A program made the position numbers and the translations under genes. From a virus, in IMG/VR virus record IMGVR_UViG_3300025108_000496, positions 1 to 20,209 of that record: a stretch of DNA of 20,209 nucleotides; one strand, written 5' to 3'. Numbering within the stretch: the first letter of the stretch is position 1; each line of letters starts with the position of its first letter. The notes beneath the pieces were generated by a model. It was not told where the DNA came from, ran no database searches, and saw nothing but the letters and a program-made list of their open reading frames with translations. Positions 6,995 to 16,430 of the stretch are shown here, one piece after another.

Positions 6995-7294
6995 CTAACC
7001 ACGCATTCCTGGCATTGGAGGACGAGGCATACCTCCACCTTGTCCCATTTGAGGGCGAGGCATAGGAGGACGTGGCATAGCACCACCTTGAGCCATTTGA
7101 GGTCTACCTTGTGGGGCTTGTGGTCTCGCTTGTGGTCGTGCTTGTGGTCGTGCTTGTGCAGGTCCACCAGATAGCTTTTTCTCTAATGCAGAGATACGTT
7201 GCTCTAGCTTTGCCATTTTGCTACCACCTGTAGCCTTTGGGGCTTTGGGGCTTTTTGCAGAAGTTTTCTTTTTAGCTGTTTTTTTAGGGGCCAT
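6995..7294 (-). CDS. Small protein with H1-like basic tail, coiled coil and Pro/Arg/Met repeats
   Basis: A 99-aa protein of three visible parts. Residues 1-27 are a Lys/Ala/Pro/Ser tail (MAPKKTAKKKTSAKSPKAPK) like the tails of histone H1 and bacterial HU-type nucleoid proteins. Residues about 27-42 (KMAKLEQRISALEKKLS) have heptad spacing of Leu/Ile and form a short predicted coiled coil, so the protein may oligomerise. Residues 43-99 are low-complexity: three to four QARP units, then two copies of a motif containing QGG-x-MPRPPMP. The DNA carries matching repeats (7117-7164 and 7017-7102). Lysine-rich tails with an oligomerising helix suggest binding of DNA or another polyanion, but this is inference. 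It lies between lysis-region genes and the nozzle gene. No Shine-Dalgarno precedes the ATG, which sits just after the stop of the 30-aa peptide gene. Confidence 0.75.
   Translation of the reverse strand: MAPKKTAKKKTSAKSPKAPKATGGSKMAKLEQRISALEKKLSGGPAQARPQARPQARPQAPQGRPQMAQGGAMPRPPMPRPQMGQGGGMPRPPMPGMRG
7017..7102 (-). repeat. Two 38-bp imperfect direct repeats inside the Pro/Met-rich gene
   Basis: Copies at 7017-7054 and 7065-7102 align base for base with a 48-bp period and only a few mismatches. They encode the repeated QGG-x-MPRPPMP peptide. The period is a multiple of three, so copy number could change without a frameshift. Confidence 0.75.
7117..7164 (-). repeat. 12-bp tandem repeat encoding QARP units
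   Basis: On the plus strand the unit CTTGTGGTCGTG occurs exactly at 7129-7140 and 7141-7152, with a near copy at 7117-7128 and a decayed copy at 7153-7164. Each unit codes for four residues (Gln-Ala-Arg-Pro) on the minus strand. Near-identity at DNA level suggests recent slippage expansion. Confidence 0.8.
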
Positions 7295-7295
7295 G

Positions 7296-7388
7296 TTATT
7301 TTTTCTTTTTCATTGCACGCCCTTTAGACTTAGCAGCCTTTGATGGTCGTCCAACTTTTGTTCCGTATGTTCCTTTTCCGTAGGGCAT
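7296..7388 (-). CDS. 30-aa basic peptide
   Basis: A short frame from ATG at 7388 to TAA at 7296 encodes MPYGKGTYGTKVGRPSKAAK followed by SKGRAMKKKK. It fills the gap between the stop of the membrane protein (7393) and the ATG of the next gene (7294), with spacings of four and one bases, so it fits the operon packing exactly. Ten of 30 residues are Lys or Arg. No strong ribosome site is seen, so expression may depend on reinitiation. The composition matches the neighbouring lysine-rich miniproteins, and a function in DNA or membrane binding can only be guessed. I recall similar 'MPYGKGTYG' peptides from other marine phages, but cannot check this. Confidence 0.65.
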   Translation of the reverse strand: MPYGKGTYGTKVGRPSKAAKSKGRAMKKKK

Positions 7389-7392
7389 GATA

Positions 7393-7782
7393 TTATTTGA
7401 TTTGAGATGAACCAAAGTAGAATCCTACAATGGCGAGTAAAGTTTGTCTAACTTCGGGTAGTATAACATAACCTGCAAGAGTTTCCCAAGTTGACCATTG
7501 AAAAAATAAAAAGTTTTTTGCCTCTAGTACAGTTACACCTCTGTCAGTAAATGCTAAAATAAAGGGTACTAATATAAGTGCAAATAAAATAGCTCCTACA
7601 ATAGTTCTTCTTACTATGACCCCACCGTTCCTAGCAGCGGCTCTATCTGCACTAGAGTCAGCCATATCTTGCTTTTCTAGAATTGTTTGTACAGTTGCCT
7701 TCTGAGCTTCTACTAAACTCCCAATAAGCTTAAATACAAAACCCATTGCACTACCTAATCCTAATGCTTGTAAATCGTCCAT
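7393..7782 (-). CDS. Membrane protein, putative three-TM holin
   Basis: A 129-aa protein. The N-terminal 50 residues are helical and partly amphipathic (GSAMGFVFKLIGSLVEAQKA). A clear membrane span follows near residues 55-78 (IVGAILFALILVPFILAF), then a Trp-containing hydrophobic region near 91-109 and a third hydrophobic helix near 113-126 (LLAIVGFYFGSS). The closing 'hhGFYFGS' motif is characteristic of the holin family first described for gene transfer agents (GTA holin, three TM segments). Holins permeabilise the inner membrane at the end of infection to release or activate the lysin. Its ATG overlaps the previous stop as TAATG, and AAGGAG lies about ten bases upstream. The membrane nature is clear; the holin role is likely but shares the region with a second candidate at 8533-8706. 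Confidence 0.65.
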   Translation of the reverse strand: MDDLQALGLGSAMGFVFKLIGSLVEAQKATVQTILEKQDMADSSADRAAARNGGVIVRRTIVGAILFALILVPFILAFTDRGVTVLEAKNFLFFQWSTWETLAGYVILPEVRQTLLAIVGFYFGSSQIK

Positions 7783-8018
7783 TATTTTTTACTCCTTACT
7801 TTTGCCGCAGGTGTATTCTTTACTACGGTTTTTTTACTTTGTTTCTTTTTCTTTGCAGTAGCTGCTCGCTGAGACTGCGATAAACTCTTGGCTTTAGCCA
7901 TTGGAAGGCATCTGTCTGGTTTTTTCTTGTTTTTAGATGTACCGCAAGCCCCTTTAATCTTTCCGTCAGTTCCGATGCGAACCCAATTTTGGTCTCTCCA
8001 TTTTTTAAGTTCACCCAT
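7782..8018 (-). CDS. Lysine-rich small phage protein with KKPDRCLP motif
   Basis: A 78-aa strongly basic protein. The N-terminal half holds WRDQNWVRIGTDGKIKGACG (about residues 7-26) and KKKPDRCLPMAKAKSLSQ (about 31-48), and the C-terminal half is Lys/Ala-rich (AATAKKKKQSKKTVVK). I recognise the pattern 'W..QdWVRI...G.I.G.CGtSk..knPDRCLP..kA.sLs..qRa.TA.KKK' from many marine phage and algal-virus proteins of unknown function (from memory, a DUF5872-like family; not checked). Two cysteines (25 and 37) flank a Lys-rich loop and could bind metal or form a disulphide. The start ATG overlaps the previous gene's TAA, and the stop overlaps the next ATG. No strong ribosome site is visible. A DNA-binding or virion role is inference. 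Confidence 0.8.
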   Translation of the reverse strand: MGELKKWRDQNWVRIGTDGKIKGACGTSKNKKKPDRCLPMAKAKSLSQSQRAATAKKKKQSKKTVVKNTPAAKVRSKK

Positions 8019-8185
8019 TACTTCTTCTTTCTTTTCTTACCCTTTGCTCCTTTAGCGTAATTAGGGTCTTTGCAATACTTAGATGCAGCCATATTAGCAT
8101 AAGCACTAGGGTATGTATCAAATGTACGCCTAGCCCAAGCTTTACCTGCAGAGCATATTTTATTTCCTTTTTTCTTAGAAGCCAT
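8018..8185 (-). CDS. 55-aa Lys/Cys protein with TFDTYPSAYAN motif
   Basis: The protein begins MASKKKGNKICSAGKAWARR and ends in a Lys tract (KGKKRKKK). The central TFDTYPSAYANMAASKYCKD is a motif I remember from cyanophage, pelagiphage and other marine phage small proteins; its function is unknown. Cysteines at 11 and 38 bracket the conserved core. I chose ATG 8185 because GGAGG sits at a good distance upstream. A longer version starting at a TTG (8257) would need a rare start and would overlap the 29-aa gene in another frame. Start and stop both form TAATG overlaps with neighbours, tying its translation to the cassette. Confidence 0.8.
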   Translation of the reverse strand: MASKKKGNKICSAGKAWARRTFDTYPSAYANMAASKYCKDPNYAKGAKGKKRKKK

Positions 8186-8274
8186 TAAACTTTCCTCCGT
8201 TTGTATGAAACAGTTTTTCTTTGTGGTACTGCCTTGGCAGCGCATTCTGAACAACAAGCACCTTTCATTAGCAT
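8185..8274 (-). CDS. 29-aa Cys-rich miniprotein (CCxxC)
   Basis: A very short frame encodes MLMKGACCSECAAKAVPQRK followed by TVSYKRRKV. The start at 8274 is preferred because AGGAG lies six bases upstream; in-frame ATGs at 8280 and 8268 are alternatives, the latter making a perfect TAATG overlap with the previous stop. Its own TAA overlaps the ATG of the next gene. Exact packing between two real genes, with a ribosome site, supports translation. Three clustered cysteines (CCSEC) followed by a Lys/Arg-rich tail suggest metal binding or disulphide linkage plus nucleic-acid contact. Three cysteines alone are too few for a classic zinc site unless it pairs with itself or with the Cys-containing neighbours. 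Function unknown. Confidence 0.6.
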   Translation of the reverse strand: MLMKGACCSECAAKAVPQRKTVSYKRRKV

Positions 8275-8561
8275 TTCCATCTCCTTCTGGCTTGTCTTAA
8301 TCTTGAGTTAGGGTCTTTCGCAGCTTTAGGAAACTTCTTCATTTGTCCTGCACTTCTAGCGCAATAAGACTTTCTACGCTTTGCATCCTTGCTACCTTTC
8401 TTAGGATTGCCTGTAACGGCAGTTTTGAGCTTAGACCCAGGGTTCTTACGCTTGTAAGCTTCTACCCCTTTCTTGGTCATTCCTGCACCTTGCTTGGTTG
8501 GTCTATAGTTACCACCCTTGCTAGTCGTACGTCTAATCGGATTTTCCTTTTTTCTGCTCAT
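8268..8561 (-). CDS. Histone-like basic phage protein (DUF6321-like)
   Basis: A 97-aa, very basic protein. Visible blocks are GGNYRPTKQGAGMTKKGVEA (about residues 16-35), KRKNPGSKLKTAVTGNPKKG (37-56), KDAKRRKSYCARSAGQMKKF (58-77) and the C-terminus DPNSRLRQARRRWKC. This order ('G.GLT.kG...yk....sklk.PVt....k......rRksfCaRm.gM.........dpnsr...alrkWnC') is a signature I know from marine phage proteins of unknown function (from memory DUF6321). Two conserved cysteines (67 and 97, the last residue) are retained. Charge suggests DNA binding or internal virion packing. The N-terminal 29 bases overlap the holin-like gene in another frame. No obvious ribosome site. Confidence 0.85.
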   Translation of the reverse strand: MSRKKENPIRRTTSKGGNYRPTKQGAGMTKKGVEAYKRKNPGSKLKTAVTGNPKKGSKDAKRRKSYCARSAGQMKKFPKAAKDPNSRLRQARRRWKC

Positions 8562-8706
8562 CTATAAGTTTTTTTATTCCTAAAATTGTATGCACTATTG
8601 TACCAACCGATGCAATACTAGCTAATATTAAACTTATATCCATTAAACCCCAAGATGCTAATACACCAAAAAAAGATACCGATAGTCTATTAGCCAAGTC
8701 TTCCAT
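8533..8706 (-). CDS. Putative class II holin (57 aa)
   Basis: A 57-aa frame from ATG 8706 to TAG 8533. The ATG overlaps the stop of the upstream gene (TAATG), and the 3' end overlaps the next gene by 29 bases. The protein reads MEDLANRLSVSFFGVLASWG, then a hydrophobic helix (LMDISLILASIASVGTIVHT, residues 21-40), then ILGIKKLIDEQKKGKSD. A polar N-terminus, 'FFG', a membrane segment and a Lys-rich tail closely mirror the layout of T7 gp17.5 holin (67 aa). Position next to the second membrane protein supports a lysis function: forming the inner-membrane lesion that releases virions. The match is architectural, not a proven homology, and a spanin or antiholin-like accessory role is the alternative. 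The gene is easily missed because it is short and overlapped. Confidence 0.65.
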   Translation of the reverse strand: MEDLANRLSVSFFGVLASWGLMDISLILASIASVGTIVHTILGIKKLIDEQKKGKSD

Positions 8707-14057: not shown

Positions 14058-14112
14058 AATTGTCCACTTTCTTTGCGCCAAAGCGATTGCGATTAAAAGT
14101 CATTATACAACC

Positions 14113-14343
14113 TTATACAAGCTTACTAAAAGTACCATCGTGTTTCTTACGAATGGACTCCCAATCTGACATCTGAAGTATTTGGTCATACGTTAAAATT
14201 CTACCAGAGATTTGCTTCATATTGTCACCATCTGCTTCGTGCAGTTCGGCTATAGCTTCTTCTCTTAGTGAATGTATTACAGAAATAAACACAGCAAAGT
14301 GTTCATTGTGCTGTAAGAACTTGAGGGCTTGTGCTAGACTCAT
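14113..14343 (-). CDS. 76-aa protein between portal and scaffold
   Basis: The protein reads MSLAQALKFLQHNEHFAVFI, then SVIHSLREEAIAELHEADGD and NMKQISGRILTYDQILQMSD. It is nearly all helix with no Cys and no membrane segment. Its ATG overlaps the portal stop as ATGA (14340-14343), so it is translationally coupled to the portal. I remember similar 'FL..NehF..Fl..i..LREe.i.eLh.a....iqqisGrI.tydqiL' proteins beside portals in marine phage genomes, always without a known function. A small assembly or scaffold-associated role is plausible but unproven. Confidence 0.75.
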   Translation of the reverse strand: MSLAQALKFLQHNEHFAVFISVIHSLREEAIAELHEADGDNMKQISGRILTYDQILQMSDWESIRKKHDGTFSKLV

Positions 14344-16430
14344 TGATTAATACCTTGTGTTTGCATTGCACCCATAGATGCAGGTTGTGTACCTACTTTA
14401 CCTATCTGGGCGTTTTGTGCTTGCTGTTGCATAAAGGTATATTGACCAATGTATTTTTGTAATCTAGCTTGGAAAGCTTCGTCAGCCTGCGCTCTCTGTG
14501 CAATATCTGGTTGCTTAACATAGTTTTGTATTACTTGCATTGCGACTTGCGCACCATTTGGTCTAGCAGGCATTTCAATTCCTGCAAAAATCTTAGCTAA
14601 GTCATCGGTAACATCTTGCATCATCTTATCTGCTGCTTGTTTACCTTCTTGTAAAATGCTATCTGCCATTACAGGGTCAATAGAATTAGCTACAGTTTCT
14701 AGTAAAGCATCCATATTGATACGACCAGAGCGGTCTAACTGAGTAAGCGACACTAAAGAGTTTAGTTTCTTCTCTTGTGTATCCTTGTCAGTATTCAATA
14801 CATCATAAGATACTACAATATCATAGCCTTCTTCTGCACTACCTTTAGAAAATTTCATAGGGTCTGGACTACCAGTAACCTTAAAGAAAACTTCGTCTGG
14901 CCCAAATCTTTGAAAGCACTTCCAAGTCATCTGCAATACTTCTGCAGCATGATTTAAGAACTTGTCTATCAAGAATTGTCTACGTATAGGAGCTAATGGG
15001 TTTTCAAAATCTAATCCTACTAAAGCATCTGCCTGTTCCTCTAAGGTTCTTTCTATTTCTATAGAACCTGTTGGTGGTGGTGGCGTAGGTGCAAAGTCTA
15101 AATCTCCTTTTCTTCTGTAAGGAATCATTCTACCAGGACCCCAATCCGTTGGTGCTTGTCCTACTGGATGCAATATCGGAGGTAATGTAGCTAAACTGTT
15201 TCTATCTATTCTAGAATCACGCTCTACCTTTACTTGGTTCTGTATACCACGTAAAACATCTGGAATAGTCATTGTATCGTAAAGTCTTTTAGAATCTTCA
15301 GATAACTTAGTAACTACTACAGGGTAATCTTCGTATCCATTAAGTAATTCAAACTTAGCGTAAGCAGGACTTTCGTCTCCTCCACTATAATCTTTATGAA
15401 AGACTGTACAGTAAATACCTTCTGAGCCATCCTCTTCGTCAAATAATCTTTGATAACCATAAACGATTTCAATTAAATCATCTGATTCATAAATACTATC
15501 GCTTACATTGTTTGCTCTACGCCCCTCTTGTTCATTCTCTATAGAGTTTATATTGATACCTCGGTAGCGTTCAATCATTACATCTACAAAGTCTTGGTCC
15601 CATCCATCTGTTACTACTTTATTTTCTAGCTCTTGTGCTGTGTAGTACGTACGCCAAAAACAATAAGGCGCTCTTTGTGGGTCTGTTACATAGCTAGGAA
15701 AAAAGAAATCTCCATCGGGTGCAAGTGTCTTTACCTCTGGGGCATCTACTTGTCTTCTTACTGTAGGTAATTCTGCTTTACCTGTTTCCCTTAAATCTTC
15801 TATGGCCTTCTTTGCTCTTTCGGAGTTTACTCCTGGGAACGCAGCAATCATTAAGTTTATTACATTTTCTATTTCATCATTGTCTGCTATAGACTGAGCT
15901 ATCTCTGGAGATGCTGTTGAAATTTGTTCAAGACTTATTTCTTGTAAAAACTTTCTGTCTTCTCTTTGCCATCCAATGTATGTAACTAAAATGCCTCGTT
16001 CTAATAAATAGTTAGCACCTAGTTCCATTTCTTTTTTGAATCTAGGTATATACCCACTAGAAATCATCCACTTTAAAAAGTTGGATACTATTCTAGCTCT
16101 AGGAATATCAGAGGTTTCTGTTGGAAATGCTCGTACGTTTGCTCTAGATACAGCAGACATAAACATAGATACAAGTCTAGTTATGCGTTCGTCAATAACA
16201 TGGGACTCAATATCCGATGCACCTTCCCAAGGAAAAGCATCTGCACCGTGCTTGCGGTGGTCGCGGCTTTTCCCATTCCACCAATTACGCCTATCATCAT
16301 AACTTGTTCTGCATAAGTCAAAATAATACTCAAGGTCGGCAATAGTTTTACTGTATGCCCAACGCAAAGTTTGTACGTCTGGCGTTTTGCTTACATAAGT
16401 AAGAGCTTTAGAGGCTTCTGTTTCTTCCAT
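14340..16430 (-). CDS. Portal protein
   Basis: A 696-aa protein forming the dodecameric vertex ring through which DNA is packaged and ejected. It lies directly after the terminase genes and before scaffold and capsid, the canonical position. The N-terminus has a helical region with WAYSKTIADLEYYFDLCRTS (24-43), then WWNGKSRDHRKHGADAFPWE (50-69) and GASDIESHVIDERITRLVSM (70-89). The 'RkhG..aFPWEGASD....vID' block is frequent in large podovirus and SU10-like portals. A central region is beta/alpha with EVKTLAPDGDFFFPSYVTDP, and the C-terminus is a long Gln/Ala-rich helix (from about residue 620), fitting a barrel domain as in P22-like portals (725 aa). The ATG has no Shine-Dalgarno; the leader is GTGTTATAATTTTTCGCA. 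Confidence 0.85.
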   Translation of the reverse strand: MEETEASKALTYVSKTPDVQTLRWAYSKTIADLEYYFDLCRTSYDDRRNWWNGKSRDHRKHGADAFPWEGASDIESHVIDERITRLVSMFMSAVSRANVRAFPTETSDIPRARIVSNFLKWMISSGYIPRFKKEMELGANYLLERGILVTYIGWQREDRKFLQEISLEQISTASPEIAQSIADNDEIENVINLMIAAFPGVNSERAKKAIEDLRETGKAELPTVRRQVDAPEVKTLAPDGDFFFPSYVTDPQRAPYCFWRTYYTAQELENKVVTDGWDQDFVDVMIERYRGININSIENEQEGRRANNVSDSIYESDDLIEIVYGYQRLFDEEDGSEGIYCTVFHKDYSGGDESPAYAKFELLNGYEDYPVVVTKLSEDSKRLYDTMTIPDVLRGIQNQVKVERDSRIDRNSLATLPPILHPVGQAPTDWGPGRMIPYRRKGDLDFAPTPPPPTGSIEIERTLEEQADALVGLDFENPLAPIRRQFLIDKFLNHAAEVLQMTWKCFQRFGPDEVFFKVTGSPDPMKFSKGSAEEGYDIVVSYDVLNTDKDTQEKKLNSLVSLTQLDRSGRINMDALLETVANSIDPVMADSILQEGKQAADKMMQDVTDDLAKIFAGIEMPARPNGAQVAMQVIQNYVKQPDIAQRAQADEAFQARLQKYIGQYTFMQQQAQNAQIGKVGTQPASMGAMQTQGINQ

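Follow-up and report, generated by a model that had tools for sequence, protein, structure and literature searches.

Three small, strongly basic proteins encoded close together in a marine phage, labelled here C (97 aa), A (55 aa) and B (78 aa), form a conserved module. The best explanation, to which we would give a probability of about one half, is that the module is virion cargo, held inside the head and associated with the DNA, with each small domain ('bead') stapled by an intramolecular disulphide. What has been observed is the conservation of the module, the fusion of its genes, capsid-targeting-like leaders in some T4-like relatives, and one mass-spectrometry detection in a relative. The window, by which we mean the whole 20,209-base stretch of viral DNA from IMG/VR, belongs to a podovirus-like phage and not to a T4-like one, and a virion location in this phage is suggested by analogy with those relatives.

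We infer contact with DNA, disulphides and ejection. C, A and B would be three small basic domains, each probably closed by one intramolecular disulphide, made late alongside the structural proteins and packed inside the head touching the DNA, where their lysines would neutralise its charge. They would probably exit with the DNA at infection, as the internal proteins of T4 do. The beads would be kept as separate genes in this phage and strung into one protein in T4-like cyanophages, with some single-bead forms carrying a T4-type leader. C, A and B turn up repeatedly in ocean metagenomes, none of them with an assigned function. Once they are tied to one another, to a late protein that fuses them and to capsid targeting, three separate 'hypothetical' families become one testable system, relevant to the proteins that abundant ocean phages enclose along with their DNA and may pass on to SAR11 and cyanobacteria. 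What is new is the module together with its fused, capsid-targeted counterparts; the single families were known before, listed without a function.

A chain of basic genes in a structural operon

All of the genes discussed lie in a minus-strand structural operon with genes for the terminase large subunit (phrog_2), the major head protein (phrog_1328), a head-closure-like protein of 738 aa and a tail-fibre-like protein. C, the 29-aa gene, A and B have the capsid genes on one side and the tail genes on the other.

Table 1. Genes of the basic chain and its neighbours, with positions in the window.
Feature	Position	Strand	Evidence or remark
C, 97-aa basic protein, DUF6321, Cys67 and Cys97	8268..8561	-	PF19846, E 9.9e-13, 49 bits against a cut-off of 28.5
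29-aa CCxxC peptide (31 aa if the upstream ATG at 8280 is used), lineage-specific	8185..8274	-	also in the nearest phage, C75C1
A, 55-aa basic protein, Cys11 and Cys38, motif YPSAYAN	8018..8185	-	phrog_27331, E 3.5e-29; alignment A1; 167 dereplicated loci
B, 78-aa basic protein, motif W..WV...CG..C.P, Cys25 and Cys37	7782..8018	-	phrog_23735, E 6.4e-37
129-aa protein with two hydrophobic stretches, flanks the chain downstream	7393..7782	-	phrog_38283 (unknown function); hydropathy
30-aa basic peptide, no Cys, lineage-specific companion	7296..7388	-	start 4 nt downstream of the 129-aa gene
99-aa basic protein, Pro/Gln-repeat, no Cys, lineage-specific companion	6995..7294	-	90-aa homologue in C75C1
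57-aa protein with two hydrophobic stretches, flanks the chain upstream	8533..8706	-	29-nt overlap with C; sub-threshold Phage_holin_Dp1 match

A preliminary description of this DNA had picked out the six basic open reading frames, and these are real, with the cysteines placed as it claimed. Their net charges are strongly positive (C +29, 29-aa +7, A +15, B +21, 30-aa +11, 99-aa +19), the other 18 genes ranging from -157 to +3. Six of the 24 genes exceed a net charge of +0.15 per residue, four of them being consecutive, and the permutation p for at least four of six basic genes standing side by side among 24 is 0.027. The description also read the stop/start overlaps as a sign of production in fixed ratios. 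The overlaps are present (7, 1, 1 and 1 nt within the chain), but overlap is the ordinary style of this genome, being found at 11 of its 23 gene junctions and at several outside the chain, so that 1-nt overlaps say nothing about ratios. Elsewhere in the window, a 258-nt stretch separates a 357-aa gene from a 696-aa gene (14082-14339); the single minus-strand frame read there, 14100-14345, is without a long ORF.

The two flanking genes had been called holin-like, which is not supported: the sole holin match, of the 57-aa protein to Phage_holin_Dp1, is sub-threshold (E 0.1, 13.4 bits against 25), and the 129-aa protein has no holin match. The hydrophobic neighbours could still suggest that the basic proteins are lysis-module peptides acting with them on the membrane, and HTVC010P and HTVC100P do have a peptidase M15 gene in the vicinity of C. 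We regard this as very unlikely, because the neighbours seldom accompany the module (the 129-aa protein is present in 16 of 220 loci and the 57-aa protein in 6 of 220), the 129-aa protein has no match to a pelagiphage membrane protein of similar size, and the module is far from the lysis genes in T4-like phages and in P-SCSP2.

The conservation of the module was surveyed in 220 dereplicated viral loci around A, B or C, taken as the best 80 relatives per query, so that the figures apply to near and moderately distant relatives. The commonest orders are C-A-B (64 loci), A-B (54), A-B-C (28) and C...A-B (16), and the commonest junction from A to B is a 1-nt stop/start overlap (88 of 165). Where at least 1.5 kb is available on both sides, B is nearby in all 46 loci seeded with A, and A in all 44 seeded with B; C is also present in 42 of these 90, and both A and B are present in 19 of the 38 loci seeded with C. 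All three genes are found in HTVC027P, DSL-LC04 and P-SCSP2. Occurrence in the same order is thus largely borne out for three genes, but these do not form an obligate set, since HTVC010P, HTVC100P and the cyanopodovirus P-SCSP1u have C but lack A and B, and HTVC106P has A-B but lacks C. P-SCSP1u was considered as an empty-site comparison for P-SCSP2 and rejected: A and B are absent from it but C is kept elsewhere, and the flanks align poorly.

The remaining basic genes are lineage-specific. Besides C75C1, the 29-aa gene has relatives in just two of the 220 loci, both weak (E about 0.01); the 30-aa gene has relatives in about four other loci, and outside C75C1 the 99-aa gene was not found in other loci of the survey. 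The conserved set is C, A and B, and the observation of a gene set in the preliminary description is real once it is trimmed from four genes to these three.

C75C1 is the nearest named phage. It carries the same genes at 93-96% identity and, between its 29-aa gene and A, one more basic gene, of 34 aa. This gene (L001 20377-20481, MPFKSEKQRKFLYANKP...) is absent from the window, and phage 023Pt_psg01 has a similar one. In C75C1 the annotation places A (L001:20456-20623) in a different frame. Two further genes are present and unannotated, namely A in 023Pt_psg01 (L002, MW574966, 6400-6594) and B in DSL-LC04 (OR003939.1 1789-2031, minus strand). P-SCSP2 has a 41-aa EF-hand-like basic miniprotein between A and B (L007 5168-5293).

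In nearly all annotated cases the module is among late structural genes. In P-SCSP2 it is between the scaffold and capsid genes, and in DSL-LC04 it follows the major capsid protein and cement genes; in P-SSM7 and Ma-LMM01 the gene is outside the main structural block.

Fused proteins and cysteine pairs

A scan for T4-like DUF6321 proteins identified 32 T4-like loci in which B, A and C are part of one late protein, in the order B-A-C. The smallest fusion, of 264 aa (L305), has the arrangement X-B-A-C with one Cys pair per bead, X being an additional Cys-pair bead (CWxGY...C) that is often present. The sequence CWxGYxxxGxxxxxGKxxxxCV of this extra bead recurs in the fusions, sometimes twice (e.g. 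L305:4443-5234, L289:4214-5173), and Cys-rich N-terminal segments of the form KCxxGYYYCxTDKKCKPIP are also found. In annotated cyanophages the fusions or their shorter relatives are often located between the small and large terminase genes (P-TIM68, S-H34, SynMITS9220M01, S-CREM2). Taken together, the clustering of the genes in podoviruses and their fusion in T4-like phages point to a shared process for A, B and C.

The cysteine pairs are well conserved, as the preliminary description would lead one to expect. Among sequences readable at both positions, C has the pair in 158 of 158. In B the pair is present in 185 of 193 and wholly missing from 8; in A it is present in 146 of 162 and replaced by Tyr or Trp in 16, a count which leaves out three long or divergent misaligned proteins and two cut ones. 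No readable A, B or C sequence has just one cysteine of its pair. The joint loss in A maps to one event in the tree, which shows that the pair stays together and is weak evidence for a disulphide rather than proof of a bond; repeated co-evolution was considered as a reading of the joint loss and is ruled out by there being only this one event.

The structure predicted by AlphaFold2 for the C protein of the window (48 sequences) has a folded, helical C-terminal half with pLDDT 81-89 and a disordered N-terminus, and a Foldseek search of this model against the PDB gave no match. For the fused L305, AlphaFold2 predicts small, separate folded beads joined by disordered linkers (pTM 0.30), with no confident packing between beads. 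These results bear on the earlier idea that four proteins form a metal-linked complex of fixed ratio. The natural B-A-C fusion does set a 1:1:1 ratio in T4-like phages. However, the 29-aa CCxxC gene is not conserved, C alone or A-B alone is found in some phages, the predicted fusion has beads that do not pack on one another, and Cys-less A beads adjoin B beads with cysteines, also inside fusions, which argues against a metal site shared between A and B. Such a complex is hardly likely.

Capsid-targeting-like leaders and virion detection

The internal proteins of T4 are packed with the DNA through an N-terminal capsid-targeting sequence (PMC9026906, PMC3012670), and it has been described which residues of the leader act in targeting and undergo processing (PMC9026906). 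T4 IPII and IPIII both start MKTYQEFIAE (read from NC_000866). Using as criterion an N-terminal capsid-targeting sequence with aromatic residues at 4 and 7, followed by a (L/I/V)xE cleavage site, a T4-type leader with cleavage motif was identified in nine C-only proteins out of 43 from T4-like phages, compared with 14 out of 714 among the remaining ORFs of those loci; the Fisher p of 1.2e-6 is optimistic, since the pattern was picked after seeing P-SSM7_194 and others, and some of the sequences are related. The other 34 of the 43 are without the leader. Examples are MKTYSQFIVE-HND, MKTYSQFIEE-GKK and MKNFREFRELAE-AKR, and a further case is S-SZBM1_192, in which MKTFKQYITE-AKN is combined with a C domain. 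The leaders precede differing middle regions, so that several lineages are involved. A second family with a capsid-targeting-like leader, MKSFxxFLSES(V/I)NI.GDFNG, is found near DUF6321 genes of T4-like cyanophages (L344 2812-3129; also L257, L261, L268 and L294).

None of 31 fused proteins has an N-terminal leader. Of 92 beads, 42 have the gp21-type cleavage motif (L/I)xE no more than 10 residues upstream, compared with 7.5% of other linker windows. By type it precedes X in 20 of 30 cases, A in 12 of 30 and C in 10 of 32, and in a shuffle control the enrichment is clear only for X (18 against 7.2 expected, maximum 14). Internal remnants of targeting leaders inside the fusions were also considered and rejected, three being seen against 4.2 in shuffles.

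One relative has been detected, weakly, in virions: ORF137 of S-CREM2, with four unique peptides and 4.1% coverage from CsCl-purified particles (PMC10665884 Table 3). The authors of that study caution that carry-over may account for some non-structural proteins (PMC10665884). Its C-terminal 77 residues are DUF6321. The protein is acidic overall (-20) except for the C domain, so the detected peptides may not stem from that domain; A and B domains are not recognisable in it, and the detection therefore bears only on C-domain proteins. In P-SCSP1u, C directly follows the capsid gene. The cryo-EM capsid of this phage is built only of major capsid protein (PMC10575957), which excludes an ordered capsid decoration there and bears on ordered decoration only, not on an internal role.

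It could be proposed that the proteins are helpers of head assembly or packaging, basic proteins of the prohead or partners of the terminase (core, scaffold-like or DNA-loading) that are neither retained nor ejected as cargo. This would agree with the genes adjoining terminases in T4-like phages and being between scaffold and capsid genes in P-SCSP2, with S-SZBM1_192 not being among the 30 virion proteins reported for its phage (PMC9146016), and with the degradation of some prohead core proteins in maturation (PMC9026906). Against it are the detection of ORF137 in virions and the phages that keep only C (P-SCSP1u) or only A-B (HTVC106P), which argue against a fixed assembly role for the trio, and we consider it unlikely.

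A host take-over or counter-defence function, late or carried in and acting on host nucleic acid or nucleoid, would make DNA contact in the head incidental. The T4 internal proteins are diverse injected defence proteins with only the leader in common (PMC3012670), and the beads are likewise separable and combined differently between phages. Nevertheless, the module proteins match nothing in a library of defence-system models, and the identity of C between podoviruses and T4-like phages stays at about 40-47%, unlike that of arms-race proteins; this function is unlikely.

The reading as head-internal, DNA-associated cargo is thus the one that we prefer. A place in the virion was among the suggestions of the preliminary description and is the best supported of them, on grounds that it did not have: the fusion, the T4-type N-termini and the one mass-spectrometry detection, all of them in relatives. 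Inspection of the window's own proteins gave no capsid-targeting leader. This counts against the reading, as do the S-SZBM1 virion list without S-SZBM1_192, the leaderless fusions and most C-only proteins, and the gene position in P-SSM7 and Ma-LMM01. A wider proposal, which is tentative, is that the beads represent a modular class of head-internal DNA-binding proteins common to unrelated groups of marine phages (pelagiphages, cyanopodoviruses and T4-like cyanophages), present as overlapping mini-genes or as a polyprotein. The prohead protease may cut between the beads, the class may be related to the giant-virus family DUF5872, and oxidation in the virion would give disulphides that stiffen the beads.

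Comparison with known families and systems

The C protein of the window is a clear member of DUF6321 (PF19846), its residues 26-95 matching positions 6-72 of the 72-position profile, above the Pfam gathering cut-off. The family has no recorded function, and our literature search found no paper naming it. It occurs in 430 of 50,697 records (cultured marine phages). Outside viruses it was found at 70 loci among 84,980 prokaryote species, mostly in environmental MAGs and SAGs, making it essentially viral. One of the few matches in isolate genomes is on a Nonlabens xiamenensis contig (L390, NZ_RMVE01000006.1) and is possibly a prophage. What distinguishes C here is that it is a separate protein whose gene clusters with A and B. 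The phrog families of A and B are both listed as of unknown function. In a PDB sequence search with profiles, B and C gave nothing and A one chance match (E 0.14).

The B protein of the window has no match in Pfam. However, its relative gp50 of HTVC027P has a weak match to DUF5872 (PF19197; E 5e-4, 21.0 bits, below the cut-off of 27.5), and judged on this match B is perhaps a distant relative of DUF5872. The algal giant virus CpV-BQ1 likewise has an annotated DUF5872 protein (PMC12085832).

The C domain is also contained in the cyanophage cluster T4-GC 119 (S-SM1 SSM1_115, P-SSM7_194), described merely as a hypothetical protein (PMC3037559). The S-SM1 copy is between TerS and a carbon-metabolism cassette. 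Here the domain is part of one multi-domain protein, in contrast to the separate genes of the window.

Finally, the module may be compared with T4 IPI, IPII and IPIII. Beyond the leader no sequence similarity of these to the module was seen; they are without cysteines, and the window's genes are without the leader. They resemble the module in being small, basic and packed with DNA, and their type of leader is shared by some C proteins of T4-like cyanophages.
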